A stretch of DNA of 52,311 nucleotides from a virus, in the IMG/VR virus record IMGVR_UViG_3300005532_000255, positions 1 through 52,311 of that record; one strand, given 5' to 3'. Positions 484-51,965 of this stretch are shown here, piece by piece. The first letter of the stretch is position 1. Each line of letters begins with the position of its first letter. The notes beneath the pieces were generated by a model. That model worked only from the letters and a program-made list of their open reading frames with translations. It searched no databases and had not been told where the DNA came from. The position numbers and the translations under genes were made by a program.

Positions 484-1650
484 TCAAACAGTTACGCGGT
501 ACTCGTTCCCGCATGGGACTCCATTAGGGACTCCAAGTCCCCATCCTGAACGTGCATATTGCTCGACGGCGGCGCACGCGGCGCCGTCGTCGAGGTGGCT
601 GTAAATGTTCAGCGTCACGTCGACGCTGCTGTGGCCCAGGGCGTCCCGCAGATCCTCTGGGTTAGCCCCCTGGCGACGGCCCCAGGTCGTGAACGTATGT
701 CGGAAATCGTGCCAAGATACCAGCGGAATCCCGGCACGTCGGCACGCTGGCTTGATATGCCTTGCTACGACATTGTGCAGGTCAACCGGGACGTTGACCC
801 TCGTGGCAAACAGGAAGTCGCGCGGGCCTCGGAACCGGCATCGTTGGACCCATTCCGTCAGCGCCGCCTGCGCCAGCGGCCAGAGCTTGACTCGTCGCCG
901 GGACCGCTGGGTCTTCGGCTCGCCGAGTACGCCCCGATAACAGGATTCGTCCACCAGCAGGGCGTCGCCGGTGAAGTCCTCCTGACGGAGCGCGGACAGC
1001 TCGCCCCGTCGCAGCCCCGTCAGCACGGCCACGATGACTAACGTGCTGTGGGGCGGCTCCAGCTCTCGCACCAGGGCCCAGAACTGCCCGGGGGTTAGGA
1101 TCACCTTCTCTCGAACCGTGCGACGAGCCGGCAGCTTCATGCGGCCTGCTGCCGGATTACCGCCAAGCCAGCCCCAATCGATGGCCACCGAGAGCAAGCC
1201 CCGCAGGTAACCCCGAAGCTCCCGAACAGACTTCGGCGCCAACTGGCGCGCCGATTCCGTCAGGAACCGCTGGACGTCCGCCTTCTCGACATCGGCGACA
1301 GGCATCGCCCCGAACGCCGGCTCGATCCGCTTGACAGCCCATTCGTAAGCGAGCTGCGTCGAGAACCGCAAGGTCGGCTTCACCGCCGCCCTCCACTCCT
1401 CGACCAGCTTGGACAAGGTCTTCTCACGGAACTCAACGCCGGGGGCAAGATCGTTGATGGGTTGAAGCACCTGCCGTGCCTTCTGGCAGGCCTCCGTGAA
1501 CGTTATCGACTGAGCCGGGCCAAGACAGGCAGTGCGACGCACACGTCGGTGCTCGTCGCCCTCCACTATGTCCGCCCAATAGCTGATTTTCCATTGTCCG
1601 TTCTGTACGCGTGGCCTGGGATTCTGCCCAGGCCTTCTTTGACGAGCCAT
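484..1650 (-). CDS. int: Tyrosine recombinase / phage integrase
   Basis: 388 residues. It carries the full set of tyrosine-recombinase residues: R214 in TGLRRGE, a lysine-containing turn GEPKTQRSRRR, H314-x-x-R317 in WHDFRH, H340 in LGH and the nucleophile Y350 in NIYSHLDD. An N-terminal SAM-like core-binding region covers about 75-170. It catalyses site-specific integration and excision of the prophage. ATG at 1650 is preferred over an upstream in-frame start at 1731 because AGGAGGG lies 9 bases before it. The stop codon abuts the tRNA-Pro fragment, so that fragment is the likely recombination target. Confidence 0.95.
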   Translation of the reverse strand: MARQRRPGQNPRPRVQNGQWKISYWADIVEGDEHRRVRRTACLGPAQSITFTEACQKARQVLQPINDLAPGVEFREKTLSKLVEEWRAAVKPTLRFSTQLAYEWAVKRIEPAFGAMPVADVEKADVQRFLTESARQLAPKSVRELRGYLRGLLSVAIDWGWLGGNPAAGRMKLPARRTVREKVILTPGQFWALVRELEPPHSTLVIVAVLTGLRRGELSALRQEDFTGDALLVDESCYRGVLGEPKTQRSRRRVKLWPLAQAALTEWVQRCRFRGPRDFLFATRVNVPVDLHNVVARHIKPACRRAGIPLVSWHDFRHTFTTWGRRQGANPEDLRDALGHSSVDVTLNIYSHLDDGAACAAVEQYARSGWGLGVPNGVPCGNEYRVTV

Positions 1651-1750
1651 ACGCCGCCACCCTCCTTGTGTGGCCGTATGGCCCGCCGACTGAACGGAGA
1701 GGATGCTACCTCGTTGTGGCACGGGGATCAAGCGCTAATCGGTGGTGGGT

Positions 1751-2562: not shown

Positions 2563-3225
2563 ATGTCGACACTTAAAGCCCGAATCATATTGGACAGCGC
2601 GAAGAGCTCAACGCAGAGCTTCTTCGCCGCCTTTGACACGGTGAGGACTGCCCGAGGGGCAACCGCAGGCGCCCCGACAGATGAAGAACAAGATCTTCTC
2701 CGTGCCGGGCTCGTCTTCGCAGCCGCTGGTTTGGACTCTATGCTCAAGCAGCTCATCCGAGAGGCGATCACGCGCCTCGCCGAGAAGAACCCAAAGGTCC
2801 AAGAGGAACTGGAAACCTTTGTGCACCGGCAGATCCGAGGCGATTCAGAGGGCTCCGAAGCAATCTCGGGCCACAAGTTCTTGGCGAGGGTGCTGGTCTC
2901 CGCGAACTTACAGGCCCGCCTGATCGAGGAATATGTGCGAGAATTAACTGGCACTAGCCTGCAATCGGCAGATCAGCTCTTCAAAACCGTGAGGGCGTTG
3001 GGGCTTGATCCGAAAGAAGCTCAACTTGACGCACAGCAACTTAAGGGCATCTTCGACATCCGAAACAAGATCATCCACGAACTCGATGTAAACCTGAACA
3101 CCGCACGTGGAAGGCGGACGCGTCACAGCCGACGAAAGCCCGAGCTGGAGGAGCACGCCCGAAAGCTTCTTGATGTTGGAGAGCGCATTCTTGGAGAGAT
3201 CGAACAGCAATTGAACTCAGCCTAA
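2563..3225 (+). CDS. HEPN-domain protein (putative RNase), rightward moron
   Basis: 220 residues, mainly helical. The segment DIRNKIIHELD holds R167-N-K-I-I-H172, the R-x4-H signature of HEPN domains, which are often metal-independent RNases in toxin and phage-defence systems. The arrangement (an early conserved helix pair, then RN..IH) is reminiscent of the RiboL-PSP/MAE-type HEPN families. It reads against the leftward phage genes and its end overlaps the helicase end by 9 bases. No antitoxin-like nucleotidyltransferase is adjacent. The motif is seen; the RNase role is family knowledge; a defence role is inference. Confidence 0.6.
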   Translation: MSTLKARIILDSAKSSTQSFFAAFDTVRTARGATAGAPTDEEQDLLRAGLVFAAAGLDSMLKQLIREAITRLAEKNPKVQEELETFVHRQIRGDSEGSEAISGHKFLARVLVSANLQARLIEEYVRELTGTSLQSADQLFKTVRALGLDPKEAQLDAQQLKGIFDIRNKIIHELDVNLNTARGRRTRHSRRKPELEEHARKLLDVGERILGEIEQQLNSA

Positions 3226-4893
3226 ACCGGCGCTCCGGGCTCGACATTCAAACCGCCCCACCTCTCGCAGGAAAACCATCTCGATGTTTTTCGTCGGGCC
3301 GTTCCGCTGTTTGGCAACGGCCAACTCGGCCTTCCCCCGCACCGATTCGTCGCGGGGTTTGTACATCTCCTCGCGGTACAGCAGCAGGACCACATCCGCA
3401 TCCTGCTCCAGCGTGCCGGAGTCGCGGAGATCGCTTAGGCGCGGCCGCATGTCGCCGCCGCGTACTTCCGGCGCGCGGCTCAGCTGTGAGAGCACCAGGA
3501 ACGGCACGTTGAATTCCTTCGCCGCCAGCTTCAGCTCGCGGGAGATGCCGGAGACCTCGGCGTTGCGGTCTCGCCCGCGCCCCGTCATCAGTCCCAGGTA
3601 ATCGATCACCACGAGGACGAGCTTCTGCTGTGCCGCTAGCCCTCGCAGCGCGGTGCACACTCCCTGGACGGTCGCCCTGGTGTTGTCGCTGATGTACAGG
3701 GGCGCCCTGGCAATCTCGCCAAGCGCAGCGGCAATCCGGCGCCGTTCCTCTCTGTCCAACTCGCCGCGCCGCAGACGCTGGCCATCCACGCGCGCCTCCT
3801 GCGAAATCAGCCGGCGCAGCAGGGATTCCTTGCTCATCTCCAGCGAGAACAGGGCAACGCAACCGCCGCCGCTCTTCGCTGCGTGGTAGGCGATCTGCAA
3901 GGCGATCCAGGTCTTCCCCATGGATGGCCGCGCGGCCACCAGACACAGCTCACCGTTGTGCAGGCCGCAAGTGAGGTCGTTCAGGGCCCGCCACGGGGTC
4001 TGTAGGCCTGGCTGCGGTCTAAGGAAGCTGTCCACGCCGCCGGCAGCGGAAAGGATTTGCTCGGGGCTGAAGAACTGCGGCTGAGCCTGTGGCTTGTGGT
4101 TGGCCTGCTCCGGGAACCAGCTCGCCCCCAGCGTGGAGACGGCACCCGCGTCCAGGACAGGCGCTGCCTTGACGGCCTGTACGAGCTCGTCTTTGCCGTG
4201 GCCCCGTGCCAGCCAGTCCGTCGCGTCCCCCTTCTTCGGGAGGCCCGGCAGCTCCACGAGCTTGACGCCACGGGCTACCGGCAACAGCGACTGCGCCGCC
4301 CGCAGAGCATGCCGCCGGCCTTCGTCGTCGTTGTCGGGCAGAATGACGACGAGCTTGCCGGCAAGGGACTGAGCGTAATGATCGCGCCACTTTCCGGCCC
4401 CGTGCGGGTTGCACGTCGCCGTCAGCCCCAGTCCACGCAGCGTCTCGACATCCTTCTCGCCCTCGACCAAGTAGACGCACTCGGCCGCCAGGACCTCCGG
4501 CAGGCGGTACAGAACGCGTCGAACGTCCCCGAGCTTCCAGGTTCCGTCCGCCCGGCGCTGCGCGAACGACTTCGGCGAGTACCGGATGACCTCGAACAGC
4601 AGCTTGCCGTGTTCGTCGGTGTACGGGTAGGTGGCGACGATCTGGCGCTGCGGCGCTTCTGAGGGGCCGTGCTCCTGGCCGCACTTGCATCGGCCACGCA
4701 GCCGGTGCGGGTAGGTTCCACTCTCTGGATTCTGCTCGATCCCGCCGGCTAACTCGTCGCGCGTGCAGTGCGCGAATTCACCGTCGCTCGACAGATAGCC
4801 GAAGCAGCGCTTCCCCTGACCGCGCGGCGCCTCGTCGCAGCCGCCGCAGATCGGACACGGATTGCGGCGATGAAACCGTTGCTGTGGTCTCAT
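3217..4893 (-). CDS. Primase-helicase fusion (TOPRIM + DnaB-type)
   Basis: 558 residues in three parts. The first is a cysteine-rich zinc segment (CPIC at 13-16 and further cysteines to about 71). The second is a TOPRIM primase-like domain with E144 in VEGEKD and D187/D189 in PDNDDEGR. The third is a RecA-type replicative helicase with Walker A ARPSMGKT (320-327) and Walker B VVIDYLGLM (D430). The plan resembles T7 gp4 and makes the protein the replisome motor and possible primer maker. Its ATG overlaps the stop of the O-like gene (ATGA at 4893-4890), so initiator and helicase are translationally coupled. Whether the primase part is active cannot be told from sequence alone. Confidence 0.9.
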   Translation of the reverse strand: MRPQQRFHRRNPCPICGGCDEAPRGQGKRCFGYLSSDGEFAHCTRDELAGGIEQNPESGTYPHRLRGRCKCGQEHGPSEAPQRQIVATYPYTDEHGKLLFEVIRYSPKSFAQRRADGTWKLGDVRRVLYRLPEVLAAECVYLVEGEKDVETLRGLGLTATCNPHGAGKWRDHYAQSLAGKLVVILPDNDDEGRRHALRAAQSLLPVARGVKLVELPGLPKKGDATDWLARGHGKDELVQAVKAAPVLDAGAVSTLGASWFPEQANHKPQAQPQFFSPEQILSAAGGVDSFLRPQPGLQTPWRALNDLTCGLHNGELCLVAARPSMGKTWIALQIAYHAAKSGGGCVALFSLEMSKESLLRRLISQEARVDGQRLRRGELDREERRRIAAALGEIARAPLYISDNTRATVQGVCTALRGLAAQQKLVLVVIDYLGLMTGRGRDRNAEVSGISRELKLAAKEFNVPFLVLSQLSRAPEVRGGDMRPRLSDLRDSGTLEQDADVVLLLYREEMYKPRDESVRGKAELAVAKQRNGPTKNIEMVFLREVGRFECRARSAGLG

Positions 4894-5642
4894 CGCCAGT
4901 ACTCGGGCAGGTCCGCATCGGCGGGTTTGGGATCATCGAGCCAGCGCTTTTCGGAAAGCCATTTCGCCGGAGCGGGGATGTACTTGCCGTTTTCCTTCTC
5001 CCATTCCTCGGATCGCAGCCAGCGCTCGAGGCCCGCCATGACCTGGTCGGCGATGGCATCCAGGCCGAGGCTCAGCCACATCTGCACCGCCATGGCCTTG
5101 CCGGTCTTGCGAGGGTACTTCTCCCAGAACCGGTCGAACGCCTCCCCGGAGTGAGATTCCGGCGACTGTACGCGCGATGCGTGACGCGCTTCTGTTCCGT
5201 TCCCCGTTCCCTTCTGTTCTGTTCTCTTCTCTTCTGTTCTATGTACACTCGGGTGACACTCGGGTGACAGGCGGGTATCACCCGGCTGCCACTCAGGTGT
5301 CCCGCCCGGCTCGATGCTTTCTAACCAGCCTATTTTCAGCAGCCTCGGGATGGCCTCGGCGAACACCTGGGCCGGGCAGCGCGTCACGCGCTCCAGCGCC
5401 TCTTCGTCGTAGGGCCTTCCGCCGTCGCGCACCAGGGTGCCACGCGGGTGACACTTGGATGCCACCTGGATGATAAGGACCCAGGCGCCGAAGTGAGCGG
5501 CCCCGTTTGCGTGGCTGATCAGCTCCGTATATCCGTCGCCGTCGTGCTTGTTGGGGATGGGGACCCAGTGGAGATTCTGGCGACCCCGGCTGCGGCTGTT
5601 CTCAAAGCGGTCGTCCCAATCGACGATGCGGAGGACCTTCAT
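4890..5642 (-). CDS. Lambda O-like replication initiator / helicase loader
   Basis: 250 residues. The N-terminal part (about 1-135) looks like a winged-helix initiator domain. The middle (HRTEEKRTEQKGTGNGTEA) is low-complexity. The C-terminal part FDRFWEKYPRKTGKA...PAPAKWLSEKRW is the helicase-interacting domain seen in many phage O/DnaT-type proteins. ATG at 5642 overlaps the stop of the upstream nuclease gene (ATGA). The coding sequence contains two blocks of 11-bp repeats (5242-5307 and 5426-5480), as the lambda origin lies inside gene O. Initiator function is therefore supported by domain, position and internal iterons. The repeats are not a codon effect, because 11 is not a multiple of 3. 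Confidence 0.8.
   Translation of the reverse strand: MKVLRIVDWDDRFENSRSRGRQNLHWVPIPNKHDGDGYTELISHANGAAHFGAWVLIIQVASKCHPRGTLVRDGGRPYDEEALERVTRCPAQVFAEAIPRLLKIGWLESIEPGGTPEWQPGDTRLSPECHPSVHRTEEKRTEQKGTGNGTEARHASRVQSPESHSGEAFDRFWEKYPRKTGKAMAVQMWLSLGLDAIADQVMAGLERWLRSEEWEKENGKYIPAPAKWLSEKRWLDDPKPADADLPEYWR
5206..5307. repeat. Iteron array A1 with pyrimidine-rich flank, candidate replication origin
   Basis: A pyrimidine-rich tract of TTCTG/TTCTC repeats (5206-5240) ends in TTCTATGTACAC. It is followed by 11-bp units starting at 5242, 5253, 5264, 5275, 5286 and 5297. The best units are GTGACACTCGG, GTGACAGGCGG and GTATCACCCGG; the consensus is GTGNCACNCGG. Spacing is exactly 11 bp, so the sites fall on roughly one face of the helix. 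The array is inside the O-like gene, the classic place for a lambdoid origin. The last unit is weak. Confidence 0.7.
5426..5480. repeat. Iteron array A2
   Basis: A second run of 11-bp units lies in the same gene, starting at 5426 (weak), 5437 GTGCCACGCGG, 5448 GTGACACTTGG, 5459 ATGCCACCTGG and 5470 (weak). It has the same consensus and phase length as array A1 and is separated from it by about 120 bp. Confidence 0.6.
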
Positions 5643-5920
5643 CGCAGGCGCCGAACATCCGGCTGCCGCCGGCGGGGCCGCCAGCGGTGGATCACCTTGA
5701 CGCAGCCCTTGGGACACGGGAAGGCCCGCATAGCCTCCATCTCCACCCCGCTTGCCCAACGGCCGGTCTTGACCTGCACCAGGATAATCTCACTTGCGGA
5801 GATCGCAACGAAATCCCACTCGCCCTTGCTGGCGGCGCTGCGGATGCACCGGTAGCCGGCGCGCTCGAATAACGCCATTGAGCGATGCTCGTTGCGCCGG
5901 CCCTTGGCCGCAGAATTCAT
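5639..5920 (-). CDS. Small PD-(D/E)XK nuclease (resolvase-like)
   Basis: 93 residues. The layout KGRRNEHR (acidic residue in helix 1), then GEWDFVAIS and ILVQVKTGRW gives the E...D...(E/Q)xK active-site pattern of small Holliday-junction-resolvase or VRR-type nucleases, with Q in the place of the middle acidic residue. It is the first gene of a tightly coupled trio (nuclease, O-like protein, primase-helicase) joined by ATGA overlaps, so a role in phage DNA replication or recombination is likely. Branched-DNA specificity cannot be shown from sequence. Confidence 0.65.
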   Translation of the reverse strand: MNSAAKGRRNEHRSMALFERAGYRCIRSAASKGEWDFVAISASEIILVQVKTGRWASGVEMEAMRAFPCPKGCVKVIHRWRPRRRQPDVRRLR

Positions 5921-5990: not shown

Positions 5991-6512
5991 GTGCCCAAGT
6001 TCATCGTAGTCATCGGCTGCTGCCACGATCTACAGAAGGTCTGCCCTACACGCCAGGATCCGGACCACATTGTCCGCCAGCAGATCCAGAAGCTCAAGTT
6101 CGTCCGAACCCTTGCCCAGATGATCGAGCAACACGGTATAAACCTGGTAGCTGAAGAGGCTCGGCATGCAGAACTCACCACAGTAGAGCAACTGGCACGG
6201 CTGGCCCACATTTACTACGCCAACATCGACATGCCGTTGGCGGAGCGGGAGAGGCGAGGGATCCCACGGACTTATTCATCACTTCGGGACATTGACGACG
6301 CCACCAAGGAGCAAGCCCGCAGGTTTGACGAGGTGCGTGAGGATTACATGTTCTCGCGGGCCAAGGAATTCATGACCAGCGACACGAAGGCCCTAGTGAT
6401 CGTAGGCCAGATGCACATGGAACCGTTGAAGAAACGGTTCGAGCAGATTTGCGACTCCGTTTGCGACTACGACGTCACGAAAGAGGCATGGTTCGACTCA
6501 TCCGCTTTCTAG
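5991..6512 (+). CDS. Possible TIKI/TraB-type protein, rightward moron
   Basis: 173 residues from GTG with a strong ribosome-binding site. Two short motifs bracket the protein: GCCH (9-12) after a hydrophobic strand FIVVI, and GQMH (139-142) after ALVIV. E55/E56 and R116/E117 lie between them. Paired GxxH motifs with a conserved glutamate and arginine characterise the TIKI/TraB/ChaN-like fold, some members of which are metal-dependent hydrolases. I infer membership weakly; length is short for the family. It stands alone against leftward genes and its end overlaps the next leftward gene by 4 bases. Confidence 0.5.
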   Translation: MPKFIVVIGCCHDLQKVCPTRQDPDHIVRQQIQKLKFVRTLAQMIEQHGINLVAEEARHAELTTVEQLARLAHIYYANIDMPLAERERRGIPRTYSSLRDIDDATKEQARRFDEVREDYMFSRAKEFMTSDTKALVIVGQMHMEPLKKRFEQICDSVCDYDVTKEAWFDSSAF

Positions 6513-8247: not shown

Positions 8248-8724
8248 TCATTTCCGTTTGAGGATCGTTTCCACGGGAGCAGTGGGCGGCCAGAACCGCA
8301 CGCTCGCCCGGAGCCCGCCGGTGCTGGTTTCGTACACCCGGCAGATGGCCGAGATCTTGTCCCACGCCACAGCATCGTGGTCGCTTTCGGACCGCTGTCG
8401 GCCCGGCACGCCGTCGATGGCCGACCATTCCCGATACGTCCAGGGGTGGCTGTGAATGTCTCCAACCAGTTCGGCCCCGGGCTTCCGCGCGTACTCGGCC
8501 GCCGCCGCGATCCATTCGCCTTGCACCTTCACGATCCCCGCCTTACAGAAGTTGTCCGCGCCGTGGGGGAAGCAGATCCCGGTGACCGTGATGATGCGGC
8601 GCGGGCCGGACTTCTGGTCGGTGCCGAGGAGCAGCGCGTACTTTTCGAGCGGAAAGACCGCCTTGGCGGCGCGCTTGAACTGCTCAACGAGCCGGCGCGG
8701 ACACCTGACAACGATGGCTTTCAC
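8248..8724 (-). CDS. JAB/JAMM-domain metalloprotease-like protein
   Basis: 158 residues from GTG overlapping the ERF stop (GTGA). The JAMM motif is complete: E27 in FPLEKYALLLG, H91-S-H93-P94, then S112-x-x-D115 in RSESD. This zinc site cleaves ubiquitin-like or cysteine/thiazole conjugates and other isopeptide bonds. In many phages JAB domains belong to tail assembly proteins (lambda K), but here the gene is embedded in the recombination operon, next to ERF and a RecB-type nuclease. A role in removing protein conjugates, for example counteracting a Cap2/Cap3-type host system, is speculation. Confidence 0.85.
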   Translation of the reverse strand: MKAIVVRCPRRLVEQFKRAAKAVFPLEKYALLLGTDQKSGPRRIITVTGICFPHGADNFCKAGIVKVQGEWIAAAAEYARKPGAELVGDIHSHPWTYREWSAIDGVPGRQRSESDHDAVAWDKISAICRVYETSTGGLRASVRFWPPTAPVETILKRK

Positions 8725-9422
8725 GATTGCTTGGGTTTCTGGAGAGCGGTGACGATCTCGTCGTACTTCTCGACGGTGATGTCCTTGGTGGATTCAAAGC
8801 CGTAGACCTCAAGCAGGGCCTTCACGTCGTCATTGGAGCGGCCGTGCTCCCTGGCAATGGCCCACAGGCGCTTGCTCTGGGCCTCGGTGATGGTTCGAGT
8901 GCCAGCCGAGGCGGGCTTCGGCGCGGCCGGAGCACGGCCCTGGGGCGCGCTCTGCGTCTCGCCGCGCCCCTCGGCTGCTTCGCCATCATCTTCTTCGTCC
9001 GGCGCCACCCCAACCATCGACGCCAAGCCGTAGCGGCGCCCATAGGTGATCGCGCTGCCGATCGCCTGGGGCGTGGCCTGGGCAGCGGCCAGGGTCAGGT
9101 CGCCGGCGATCCACTCTCCGCTCTTGTGGAGCAGGATGGTGGTCACCGTGACCCGCTGCGAGCCATCGGCGGAGACCGGCTGCAAAACGGCCAAGCCGTT
9201 CTTGCAGAGCGCTTTCCGGCAGGCCTCCCAGACGCTCGCGAGGTCAGCGTAGCGGGACTTGAAGTGCGGATTCAGCGAGTCCTTGCTGGCCGCCTCGATT
9301 TCATTCTGCGCCAGCGCCAGCGCCGCGCCCAGTTGCGCCAACTGGTCCGAGTGGCGGACCTTCCCGCCCGCAGGCCCGGCCTGCGGCAGCGTGGCGAACG
9401 TGATGTTGTCTTCTTCTGTCAC
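8721..9422 (-). CDS. erf: ERF-family single-strand annealing protein
   Basis: 233 residues from GTG at 9422, which overlaps the stop of the RecB-like gene (GTGA). The segment LGAALALAQNEIEAASKDS, then PHFKSRYADLASVWE and SAITYGRRYGLASMVGVAPDEEDDG is the ERF core: it binds single strands and anneals homologous DNA in phage recombination. The following Ala/Pro-rich linker leads to a small C-terminal helical domain (TEAQSKRLWAIAREHG...). It pairs naturally with the exonuclease-like gene upstream as a two-part recombination system, similar in logic to lambda Exo/Beta. Confidence 0.9.
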   Translation of the reverse strand: MTEEDNITFATLPQAGPAGGKVRHSDQLAQLGAALALAQNEIEAASKDSLNPHFKSRYADLASVWEACRKALCKNGLAVLQPVSADGSQRVTVTTILLHKSGEWIAGDLTLAAAQATPQAIGSAITYGRRYGLASMVGVAPDEEDDGEAAEGRGETQSAPQGRAPAAPKPASAGTRTITEAQSKRLWAIAREHGRSNDDVKALLEVYGFESTKDITVEKYDEIVTALQKPKQS

Positions 9423-10069
9423 CGTTTTCCGATCCTTTCTTTGATCTTCTTGTCGAGCTCGTAGGCACGCCGGAGGGACAAAAACATCTCCCAAGCGTCA
9501 TCCAGCTCGGCGAAGAACCGCGCCTCGAAGTCGGGGTGCTGCTTGCTGAAGCGCACGAGCTGGAAACCCTCAATGGGTTCTTGCGGGTGATGTTCGTTCC
9601 AGAGCCCCCCGTAGGCTGCGAGTTGGAGCAGATACTCGCCGTAGACCGCGTTGGATGTCTTCCAGTCGCCCAGCAGCCGTCGGCCACCAACGAGGATCAC
9701 ATCGAGCGTTCCGCCGTACCGGTGCTGCTCCGAAACAAGCTGAACCTCGGTCGCCAGCGGCTCGAGCTTGGTCTGCGCGGCCCACTCGCGGTACGTCGCG
9801 TAGGCATGGCGCGCTTTGCTCTCCACGTCATCGGGCACGTCCGGCATCACGAACGGCCGCCCGTGGATTTCGGCCTCCACCATGGCGTGGGCGATGGTTC
9901 CGGCGTCCGCTGCGGCCTGGCGCGTCTCGCGATAATCCCGGCCGGCACGGCCCTCCTCCCAGGCCCAGTGCATCAACGGGCCGGCGTCCTTGAAGCGGCC
10001 GAGAATCGTGGTCACGCCCGGCACACGCGTGCCGTCGGCGAGGAAATACCCTTGCTTGGGTGTCGGCAT
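9419..10069 (-). CDS. RecB/Cas4-type PD-(D/E)XK exonuclease
   Basis: 216 residues. Motifs in order: GTIAH (57-61), E108 in TEVQLVS, D123 in YGGTLDVI, D135-W-K137 in LLGDWKT, and Y146...Q149 in EYLLQLAAY. This is the full RecB-family nuclease set (H, D, D-x-K, Q/Y). It would resect double-strand ends to give the single strands used by the ERF protein encoded immediately downstream. No four-cysteine cluster is seen, so it is not a typical iron-sulphur Cas4. Confidence 0.85.
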   Translation of the reverse strand: MPTPKQGYFLADGTRVPGVTTILGRFKDAGPLMHWAWEEGRAGRDYRETRQAAADAGTIAHAMVEAEIHGRPFVMPDVPDDVESKARHAYATYREWAAQTKLEPLATEVQLVSEQHRYGGTLDVILVGGRRLLGDWKTSNAVYGEYLLQLAAYGGLWNEHHPQEPIEGFQLVRFSKQHPDFEARFFAELDDAWEMFLSLRRAYELDKKIKERIGKR

Positions 10070-41737: not shown

Positions 41738-42679
41738 ATGCCAAAAGCCAAAGTCCTGGCCTTTATAAACTACAAAGGCGGTGTCGCAAAGACTACGACG
41801 ACGTACCATGTGGGGTGCTCTCTTGCACAGCACCTGGAGAAGCGCGTCCTCCTTGTGGATATCGACCCGCAGACTAACCTGACGTTCCTCTGCGCTTCGA
41901 TTGAAGACTGGGAGAAATTCAAAAAGAGCAAAGGCACGATAAACTCGATGTACCGGCGCTATCTCGAGGGCAAGTCGCTCGATCCGAAATACTTCATTTG
42001 GAAAGAGCCTGTTGGGGGATCGATCAAACGGCGCATTCGCGGCCTCGACTTGATTCCCTGCGATATTGACCTGCTCGGCGAGGACCTCGGAGGAGGTGAC
42101 TTGGCTGGGCCCATACCGAGTTTCGAACTCCTGAAGCGCCACGCGGGCAAGTACATCAAAGATCGGTCGTTCCTCCGAAAAGCTCTGCGCGAGGTCGAAA
42201 ACGATTACGACTACATTCTGATCGACTGCCCGCCCAATCTCTACCTAATGACACAGAATGCGCTGGTCGCAAGTCGCTGGTATGTTGTGACGGCTATTCC
42301 GGATCACCTCTCCACGATCGGTCTCAGTATCCTTCAGCAAAAAGCGCACAAGATCGGAGAGTCTTTTAGACACGCCCACACGCTCGCTGGGGATGATGCC
42401 ACTCCCGTTCGAACGGCGGAATTGGGTGGCGTTATCTTTGTCCGGGTAAGGCTCGGCGGTAGCATGATAACGAACGTGCATTTCAGCACAATGGTGCAGG
42501 TACGGAATTCCCTCGGGAACGGCGTTTGCTTCGACGGTCGCACCACCGAGTTAATTGGGTACGGTGAAGCAGCGGAGCAAAGCCTACCGGTGTGGATGAC
42601 CAATACGAAAAACGCCATCAGTGCAGCCGGAAAGGGCGAGTACCAGCGGATCACCAAGGAACTCGCCGAGAGGTTTTGA
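41738..42679 (+). CDS. ParA-family ATPase, rightward moron (first gene of pair)
   Basis: 313 residues from ATG at 41738 (AAAGGGATG upstream), rather than the longer frame from 41591. The deviant Walker A is NYKGGVAKTTTT with K13 and K18. VDIDPQ (D41, D43) follows, and ILIDCPP is Walker B. This makes it a ParA/MinD ATPase that forms ATP-dependent dimers on DNA or membrane. No parS or ParB is adjacent, and an integrated prophage does not need partition. It is followed directly by an unknown gene. A DNA-localised defence or segregation role is possible. Confidence 0.85.
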   Translation: MPKAKVLAFINYKGGVAKTTTTYHVGCSLAQHLEKRVLLVDIDPQTNLTFLCASIEDWEKFKKSKGTINSMYRRYLEGKSLDPKYFIWKEPVGGSIKRRIRGLDLIPCDIDLLGEDLGGGDLAGPIPSFELLKRHAGKYIKDRSFLRKALREVENDYDYILIDCPPNLYLMTQNALVASRWYVVTAIPDHLSTIGLSILQQKAHKIGESFRHAHTLAGDDATPVRTAELGGVIFVRVRLGGSMITNVHFSTMVQVRNSLGNGVCFDGRTTELIGYGEAAEQSLPVWMTNTKNAISAAGKGEYQRITKELAERF

Positions 42680-42684
42680 GTTTA

Positions 42685-43245
42685 GTGGGCACACGGAAAC
42701 GACCGGACTTTTTCAAGGCAGAGAAATTCCTGCAGAGCCTTAGCGGCCTTGTCGAGTCCCTTCCGCCGGAATCGGATAAACAGCGGGTTGCAGCAAATCT
42801 CGATCTGGTTATCGATTTCCTGAGCGAAATTAGGAAAACCGTGAGTTCGCTTCCTTCTCAAGAGAGCGCGACCTCAGTCCAGTCCGCGATCGATGGCCTG
42901 AATTCGCTCTTCGCGCGTGCACGTGCGAGCGCTCCGCTGGCCGCAGCACTAGGCCTGCAACCATCTGCCCGTAAACCGAAAGTCGCACCGTTGACGGAAG
43001 CCGACTCCGAACGAGCCAGGATATTGCTCGAAAAGTTGGAGAAGCTGCCGATCGACGATCTGCGAGCGAATCTGGAGAATACTTCGACAACTTCACCCCG
43101 CGATTTGCATGCAATTGCAGCGCTCATGGGGATAAGATCGACGCAGCGCAGCAGCCGGGAATCATTGGTGCATCAGATTGCTTCGAAGGTCGCCAATGCT
43201 CGTGGCTACGAAACGCTCAGACGTGGAACCGAAGATAGCGATTAG
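42685..43245 (+). CDS. Unknown partner of the ParA ATPase
   Basis: 186 residues from GTG at 42685 (a TTG at 42676 overlapping the ParA stop is an alternative). Mainly helical: FFKAEKFLQSLSGLVESL, a mid helix pair, an Ala-rich linker, then a C-terminal domain LEKLPIDDLRANLEN...AIAALMGIRSTQRSSRESLV, with a helix-turn pattern like SAP or DNA-binding helix-extension modules. It starts 5 bases after ParA and shares its promoter. I do not recognise the family. It may be the ParB-like stimulator or effector of this ATPase. Confidence 0.7.
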   Translation: MGTRKRPDFFKAEKFLQSLSGLVESLPPESDKQRVAANLDLVIDFLSEIRKTVSSLPSQESATSVQSAIDGLNSLFARARASAPLAAALGLQPSARKPKVAPLTEADSERARILLEKLEKLPIDDLRANLENTSTTSPRDLHAIAALMGIRSTQRSSRESLVHQIASKVANARGYETLRRGTEDSD

Positions 43246-51451: not shown

Positions 51452-51484
51452 GTGACACCGGAGTGACACCCTGGTGTCACGGTT
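51452..51484. repeat. Iteron array B1
   Basis: Three 11-bp units start at 51452 (GTGACACCGGA), 51463 (GTGACACCCTG) and 51474 (GTGTCACGGTT). Same family as the units in the O-like gene. Confidence 0.65.
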
Positions 51485-51578
51485 CCCTTCTGTCCCTGTT
51501 CTGTTCTGTTCTGTTCTGTTCTATGTACACCTGAGTGGCAGCCGAGAGACACCCGGGTGACACCCGCGTGTGACCGCT
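51482..51578. repeat. CTGTT tract plus iteron array B2
   Basis: GTTCCCTTCTGT, then five CTGTT copies (51496-51520) and TTCTATGTACAC lead into 11-bp units at 51524 (weak), 51535 GTGGCAGCCGA, 51546 GAGACACCCGG, 51557 GTGACACCCGC and 51568 GTGTGACCGCT. The flank is the same as that of array A1 (5206-5248). Confidence 0.7.
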
Positions 51579-51602
51579 GGTAAGTCTTTGACGGTGGACT
51601 AC

Positions 51603-51618
51603 CTTAGGTGCGCCTAAG
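51603..51618. repeat. Inverted repeat CTTAGG-TGCG-CCTAAG
   Basis: Six-base arms around a four-base centre, between iteron arrays B2 and B3. It could be a regulator or initiator site. Confidence 0.5.
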
Positions 51619-51624
51619 CCAAAG

Positions 51625-51690
51625 GTGGCAGCCGGGTGACAGGCACGTGGCAGGCGAGTGACACGCCCTTGGCATCACAATGTCAACCGC
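51625..51690. repeat. Iteron array B3
   Basis: Six 11-bp units in exact phase start at 51625 GTGGCAGCCGG, 51636 GTGACAGGCAC, 51647 GTGGCAGGCGA, 51658 GTGACACGCCC, 51669 (weak) and 51680 (weak). Confidence 0.7.
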
Positions 51691-51965
51691 ACCCGCACCC
51701 TAATTTTTGGGCAATTCGCTGGCGAAAACGTGCCATCTCTCTACCCGCCGCCCGCCGCGCCAGGAAGTACCTAAAAACTCAAACTCTTACGGGCCATTGA
51801 CGGCGACGTCCGGAATAGAAACTCAAAGTTTATGTTTCAAACACTTCTACGTAAAACGTTTGTAGCCAATGAAGCGGTCTTGGGAAAGGCCGTTGTATTA
51901 CCTCCACGCTCCCCACGACGCGCGGGCGGGCCTATATTGCCCGGGAACTGGTCACCGGCCGGACA

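Follow-up and report, generated by a model that had tools for sequence, protein, structure and literature searches.

Introduction

Replication origins that lie within an initiator gene are a known kind. In phage lambda the iterons and an opening tract (ori-lambda) are located within gene O, with 18-bp sites annotated 20, 24 and 23 bp apart in NC_001416 and 19-bp inverted repeats described in PMC7466680; the next gene, P, serves helicase loading. For the pSK41-type RepA_N initiators of staphylococci the origin boxes are placed midway along the rep gene, and the linker is given as dispensable as protein and the C-domain as one that can be exchanged (PMC5703833, PMC7145576); the iterons are described as semi-palindromic repeats around an A-tract (PMC7145576), and a natural swap of the N-domain together with the origin is known for plasmid pPR9 (PMC5703833). 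These initiators and the RepA of the Vibrio cholerae islands called PLE combine a winged-helix N-domain with an in-gene origin, as would the locus described here. For Bacillus phage SPP1 the published accounts give one origin, oriL, in gene 38 and a second, oriR, in non-coding DNA, with direct repeats and an AT-rich region, both bound by gp38, and suggest that oriR perhaps stops forks, starting concatemer synthesis (PMC6316719, PMC3485210). Helical phasing of iterons matters in plasmids (PMC5043065). In the open-licence literature on origins, iterons and initiators, as represented by titles and the starts of abstracts, no 11-bp iterons in phage initiator genes are mentioned. Because in-gene origins are a known kind (lambda, pSK41, SPP1) only the spacing of one helical turn is unusual at the present locus, and an 11-bp pitch across several initiator families, which we have not found described, is possibly new.

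The DNA studied here, referred to as the window, has 52,311 bases and makes up an entire IMG/VR virus record that is classed as linear. An earlier note on this DNA had proposed a lambda-style origin in an O-like gene. What stands of that proposal is a DNA-level array in the linker of an initiator gene, upstream of a gene for a DnaB-like helicase; what does not is the assignment to the lambda O type and the extent given for the array. From the sequence we consider it probable that the region is the origin of the phage, placed in its own initiator gene, and that the initiator has a further site in a non-coding group of arrays, cluster B.

Results and Discussion

Phased arrays in the initiator gene

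Table 1. Positions of replication-related and neighbouring features in the window (strand given as a point where none is assigned)
Feature	Position	Strand	Remarks
Integrase	487-1731	-	
DnaB-like primase-helicase	3217-4893	-	next gene downstream of initiator
O-like replication initiator gene	4890-5642	-	250 aa; ATG at 5642; stop overlaps helicase start
Purine tract	5196-5240	-	GAACAGAAG type on coding strand; directly after A1; candidate opening region
Array A1	5242-5307	.	six 11-bp registers GTGNCAC-N4; five good units 5253-5303
Winged-helix N-domain	5310-5642	-	predicted DNA-binding part
Array A2	5426-5480	.	three good units 5437-5465; flanks weak; weaker than A1
Holliday-resolvase match	5639-5920		weak
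Erf-type annealing protein	8721-9494		
ParA-like ATPase	41738-42679		among structural genes
Array Bup	51452-51480	.	three exact GTGNCAC units in 11-bp steps; non-coding
Second purine tract	51481-51523	-	CTGTT run on + strand; junction TTCTGTTCTATGTACAC also beside A1
Array B1	51524-51578	.	four good units 51535-51574
Array B2	51625-51686	.	six units, each at least 4/6
Candidate unwinding element	51814-51873	.	record's least stable 60 bp; ~130 bp from B2

The units of the two arrays in the gene (Table 1) begin in 11-bp steps at 5242, 5253, 5264, 5275, 5286 and 5297 and at 5426, 5437, 5448 and 5459, just as the earlier note had them. Its count of nine units fitting GTGNCACNNGG has to be revised, since exact fits occur in the region claimed at 5253, 5437 and 5448 only (3); GTGNCACNNGG is too strict and nine an overcount, but the loose core GTGNCAC is right. 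When the six fixed letters of this near-palindrome are scored, 5 of 6 starts in the first array and 3 of 4 in the second reach 5 or 6 of 6, with the starts at 5242 and 5426 at only 3/6. The core is the part that recurs from unit to unit; outside it the units have diverged, with core and spacing maintained. A2 falls in codons of a stretch of the N-domain, VASKC.PRGT, that is conserved in the family, and it is because of this overlap that A2 is the weaker array.

Over the whole record the highest lag-11 self-matches are located at 5244 (.76), 51531 (.73), 5429 (.73) and 51624 (.70), followed by a next value of.58. As the four best places include 51531 and 51624 a second, non-coding cluster exists, at 51452-51686; the earlier note, correct about the arrays in the gene, had overlooked this half of the arrangement. 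Runs were defined as at least 4 phased units, each with at least 4/6 on GTGNCAC. The window has three, at 5253, 51535 and 51625, with summed scores of 26, 21 and 29, whereas in 100 Markov-1 simulations using the window's neighbour frequencies a record contained on average 0.18 such runs, and the highest summed score was 18. That an 11-bp period is not a codon repeat, as had been argued from the period itself, is borne out by controls with synonymous codons, which rule out such a source: the observed lag-11 score is reached in 0/1000 synonymous-codon shuffles of the O-like gene, and random synonymous codons reach the score of the first array in 4/20,000 and of the second in 9/20,000 cases. Because these controls seldom or never attain the score, the protein does not account for the arrays, and the signal is one at the level of DNA.

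The initiator and its neighbours

Residues 127-243 of the O-like protein match PHROG 9474 and 270, 'replication initiation protein', at 1.3e-21 and 2.5e-17, respectively; the whole protein is without a match in Pfam, and no O-like family was matched in the searches made. AlphaFold2 predicts a winged helix for the N-domain (pLDDT 91.9, pTM 0.86). PF09681 (Phage_rep_org_N), which comprises replisome organisers of streptococcal and other phages, matches 6 of 12 homologous N-domains, with a best value of 1.3e-5, and the window's own only at E 0.2 (12.1 bits, relative to a curated cut-off of 23.3). For the RepA_N profile no match is listed among the 12 N-domains at E up to 10, in a HMMER search whose filters discard most hits above 0.1, and a PDB sequence search returned no match to the N-domain. 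The N-domain model aligns to the RepA_N chains 4pql, 4pt7, 4pta and 5kbj at Z 4.8-5.4, below significance; chains of this same set make up the top five Foldseek rows from the PDB (E 0.14-0.73, again below significance), and with the aligner that gives the Z values, PDB entries of no relation (methionine aminopeptidase, CodY) reach the level of RepA_N. Among viral folds the N-domain is matched best by a protein of an uncultured phage (E 1.9e-4), followed by replication proteins and replisome organisers, and a protein of Streptococcus phage Abc2 matches with TM 0.69 and E 0.078. Judging from the model and from the gene layout, the closest type would be that of RepA_N and the phage replisome organisers rather than lambda O itself.

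Linker residues 119-164 have pLDDT values below 50 and are predicted to be disordered; their codons cover most of A1 and of the purine tract. The next gene encodes a primase-helicase (PF03796, 5.2e-85; PHROG 239 DNA primase/helicase, 1.1e-74; Toprim weak), so that the helicase itself is found here where lambda has P for helicase loading. As in lambda, repeated candidate initiator sites lie within the initiator gene together with a candidate opening tract, but the size and spacing of the lambda iterons (18-20 bp inverted repeats, 20-24 bp apart) are not those of the 11-bp unit found here. The 21-bp period seen in some relatives of the window's initiator (see below) may be set beside the 20-24 bp of lambda. 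With respect to RepA_N, the semi-palindromic iterons of that family differ from the 11-bp GTGNCAC unit.

A purine tract beside the array

Of all 45-nt stretches in the gene, the tract that adjoins A1 has the highest purine content (0.89), with TRF rows there as well, and its 60-bp stability is among the least stable 1.2% of the record in a nearest-neighbour scan of 60-bp windows over the whole record. It is strand-biased and not AT-rich in the sense of lambda, the GC of the 100 bp from 5200 being 0.56. Among 22 genes, 16 have their purine-richest 45-nt stretch starting between -30 and +60 nt from the end of the array, relative to a chance of 0.112 per gene, the misses being L080, L086, L078, L122, L124 and L134; the corresponding P of 2.5e-11 holds only if the genes are independent, and homologues are not. 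Lambda-type origins have an easily opened tract beside the iterons, and on these sequence features the purine tract is likely the opening region here.

Initiators often control themselves, which speaks for reading the arrays as operators, for autoregulation or transcription of the initiator, and not as an origin. Cluster A, however, lies in the middle of the gene rather than at any promoter, and 16 of the 22 genes have a purine tract at a fixed place next to the array; we regard such a function as very improbable.

For the arrays as origin the following course of events is envisaged. The winged-helix N-domain of the O-like protein would bind the GTGNCAC cores. The earlier suggestion that units spaced by one turn would load initiators on one face of the helix is soundly drawn from the 11-bp pitch, and with cores every 11 bp we propose that successive protomers come to lie near one DNA face, where they could stack to build a compact wrapped or filament-like complex. 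Such a complex may strain and open the strand-biased purine tract beside the array, after which the C-domain would recruit the phage's DnaB-like helicase, the product of the next gene. The system offers a clean test of initiators stacking on one face of DNA.

A second, non-coding cluster

Cluster B comprises three arrays outside gene-sized frames, with no frame of more than 75 codons there, and its 17-bp junction to the pyrimidine run (CTGTT/CTTCT) is identical to that at A1. An in-gene site plus, outside coding DNA, another set of the origin repeats near a stretch that melts readily is an arrangement like that of SPP1; the two phages differ in the distance and orientation of the two sites, and the window phage, judged by its integrase, is temperate. 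Cluster B could be a second origin or a fork-blocking or control site similar to SPP1 oriR, and the Erf-type annealing protein together with the weak resolvase match would suit the SPP1-like reading, in which one initiator would bind both sites and replication would pass from theta to sigma. Taken as a circle, the record has its cumulative GC-skew minimum at 6235, which counts for the origin reading, gene direction being a confounder of GC skew. Among the 8 records compared cluster B is present only in that of the window; the records of the 7 relatives, all possibly incomplete, show no B-like second cluster.

The main rival readings of cluster B are a centromere and a dead remnant. R1-type centromeres use 11-bp iterons, and this counts in favour of a division of labour in which cluster A is the origin and cluster B the partition site (centromere) of the ParA-like protein. 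No repeats were found near parA, leaving it without an adjoining site of its own, and of the 8 records searched only the window's has a ParA of this type, the seven related records being without one, as they are without cluster B. Cluster B is nevertheless ~9 kb from parA, no ParB-like DNA-binding partner was recognised (the gene at 42592-43245 belongs to no clear family), and a centromere would not need the purine tract and junction that B has in common with the initiator's array, so that we find a centromere quite improbable.

The same shared junction can be read in another way, namely that cluster B is what is left of another initiator gene, older or foreign, of which only the linker with its ori has survived. 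Consistent with this, tblastn with the initiator matches 51457-51567 (residues 120-156, 49%). An unfiltered hmmsearch of the surroundings detected no trace of an N-domain, however (best E 1.9); the B arrays, free of any coding constraint, match those of A in regularity; and B exceeds A in size, having three arrays and a low-stability stretch. A dead remnant is therefore unlikely, and we continue with cluster B as a second site of the initiator.

Between B1 and B2, at 51603-51618, there is a short perfect hairpin, CTTAGGTGCGCCTAAG. At the other end of the record the stretch 424-477, adjoining the integrase, is by eye an apparent 3' half of a tRNA gene without a 5' half on its left, and ARAGORN detects no complete tRNA in the record. 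Such an attP-like stretch suggests that the record represents free phage DNA and not a prophage integrated in its host.

Homologous initiators keep the pitch

Profiles of the N-domain recovered 16 loci from IMG/VR with 12 distinct proteins (duplicates judged by eye); simple searches of IMG/VR with the whole initiator were unsuccessful. In genomes the domain is present in 3 of 294 from the phylum of G002, which is Planctomycetota since G002 is a Phycisphaerae genome, and in 0/398, 0/188 and 0/200 from the phyla of G008, G004 and G003, empty answers that are weak evidence. It is absent at E 1e-3 from INPHARED (query, the L070 relative) and from PLSDB (query, the window). Taken with cluster B, this points to a phage that may have two sites for its one initiator and whose initiator has kin in Planctomycetota genomes.

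In most of the relatives the linker between N-domain and C-domain carries repeats. For 15 pooled linkers including the window's, with limits set by eye and L085 (no visible array) omitted, there are 164 near-repeats at distance 11, relative to a shuffle mean of 38.8 (max 63); the corresponding numbers are 113 vs 28.9 at distance 22, 73 vs 21.3 at 44 and 86 vs 51.4 at 21, and no further distance is above z 3.2. When distances are evaluated over whole genes, without chosen limits, 11 or 22 ranks top in 8/16 (the window, L080, L088, L087, L082, L086, L122 and L124), 21 in L078 and L123, and others in L073, L083, L084, L079, L077 and L085. For lambda O the whole-gene statistic yields z values of just 2.2 (distance 23) and 2.0 (distance 20), and it is therefore insensitive to loosely spaced iterons. 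The initiator linker is the best lag-11 stretch of the record in 4 of 7 relatives (G009, G011, G012, G018); in G013, G014 and G015 it has a 21-bp repeat instead, which is the top of the piece in G014 and G015 and second in G013. L085, without an array, is a weak member of the set, as are L073 and L086, in which the lag-11 value is equalled in 203/1000 and 77/1000 synonymous shuffles.

Three classes of motif were distinguished by eye. A [GC]TGNCACCC-like unit occurs in the window, L080, L088 and L087; CCGCA/TGCGG half-sites in alternating orientation, mostly 11 + 10 bp apart, in L077, L078, L079, L083 and L084; and a further, different motif in L122, L123 and L124. Because the classes differ among relatives at common distances, the pitch is kept and the motif changes. 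Iteron class tracks the N-domain phylogeny only weakly, with 6 changes for a shuffled mean of 8.0, a number as low in 13/200 shuffles. L073 and L084 are 79% identical in their C-parts and 50% in their N-domains, and their iterons are different, the pattern that joint exchange of N-domain and origin in a single cassette would produce. The comparison suggests that origin and initiator travel together as one cassette in which the spacing is kept and the motif changes. The initiator of L084 (3001-4170) is homologous and has, by eye, an HNH-endonuclease-like extra stretch between N-domain and iterons.

The layout of an array in the initiator linker recurs in the homologues and in other initiator families. 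For O-like genes of named phages, included as controls, the distances are 22/44 in CF183a, 14 and 11 in Shamal and 21, 14 and 11 in MR13, with nothing strong in XanSAC and Aurca01. In the O-like gene of Pseudomonas phage CF183a (L128) the 22- and 44-bp repeats are above synonymous shuffles, with z of 5.2 and 6.0.

Motif scans of other DNA

A scan of viral-contig DNA for three TGNCACCC units at 11-bp pitch gave 23 loci, 9 of which (L005, L034, L133, L134, L138, L139, L142, L146, L150) are located in linkers of initiator-type genes as judged from reading frames, or ~7/18 after collapsing look-alikes by eye. Four that were tested against PHROG (L005, L134, L138, L139) are annotated as replication initiation protein or DnaD-like helicase loader, and L142 and L150 resemble L134 by eye. 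L034, L133 and L146 carry the N-domain of the window, with identities of 43% (L133) and 52% (L146), so that a scan by motif only yielded two new members of the initiator family. The other 14/23 loci are intergenic or plain repeats with no obvious initiator gene. In an earlier scan with a shorter pattern initiator-like frames were found at 3/42 loci and ~39/42 had no obvious initiator gene by reading frames, and in a genome scan 21/21 loci lie, by eye, outside obvious initiator genes. Since most loci are outside initiator genes the motif by itself is no diagnostic feature, and becomes one only in combination with its location. The perfect four-unit arrays at the 21 genome loci resemble minisatellites and were set aside.

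Many of the non-initiator loci are in fact perfect tandem repeats, and the occurrence of perfect 11-bp tandem repeats with this core at many unrelated places might indicate that the window's repeats, too, are a functionless minisatellite, tolerated in a disordered linker. This we hold to be very improbable, given that the window's units have diverged outside a core that is kept with its spacing, that homologues keep the spacing with other motifs, and that a scan based on DNA only arrived in initiator genes at 9 of its loci.

Returning to the arrays as origin, a broader proposal can be put forward tentatively, as a serious possibility that we stop short of favouring: one-turn iterons may constitute a widespread, undescribed origin code, in which spacing and not sequence is conserved across unrelated initiator families and, in the window, the initiator also acts at B. 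Spelled out, winged-helix phage initiators would use the core TGNCACCC or quite different cores at 11-bp or 10+11-bp pitch, with the arrays in the linker between the DNA-binding and helicase-recruiting domains and beside a strand-biased purine tract. Origins in unstudied phages might be located by a sequence rule, namely an 11-bp pitch plus a purine tract in the disordered linker of an initiator.

Other searches were less productive. With the array regions as Blast queries, plasmids and phages returned rows at chance level only, and the tract-array junction sequence, searched for elsewhere, was not found. A search with the helicase was set aside, as it gave only 4 loci whose upstream genes are without such an array. 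L045 (5014-5847) carries a fragment of a helicase with 91% identity to that of the window, on a contig that also has the window's tail-fibre-like gene; with no adjoining initiator, the fragment is a broken replication module. Finally, four non-coding, slightly diverged 11-bp arrays of GTGACAC type (L049, L050, L052, L057) are located on one Dehalococcoidia chromosome.
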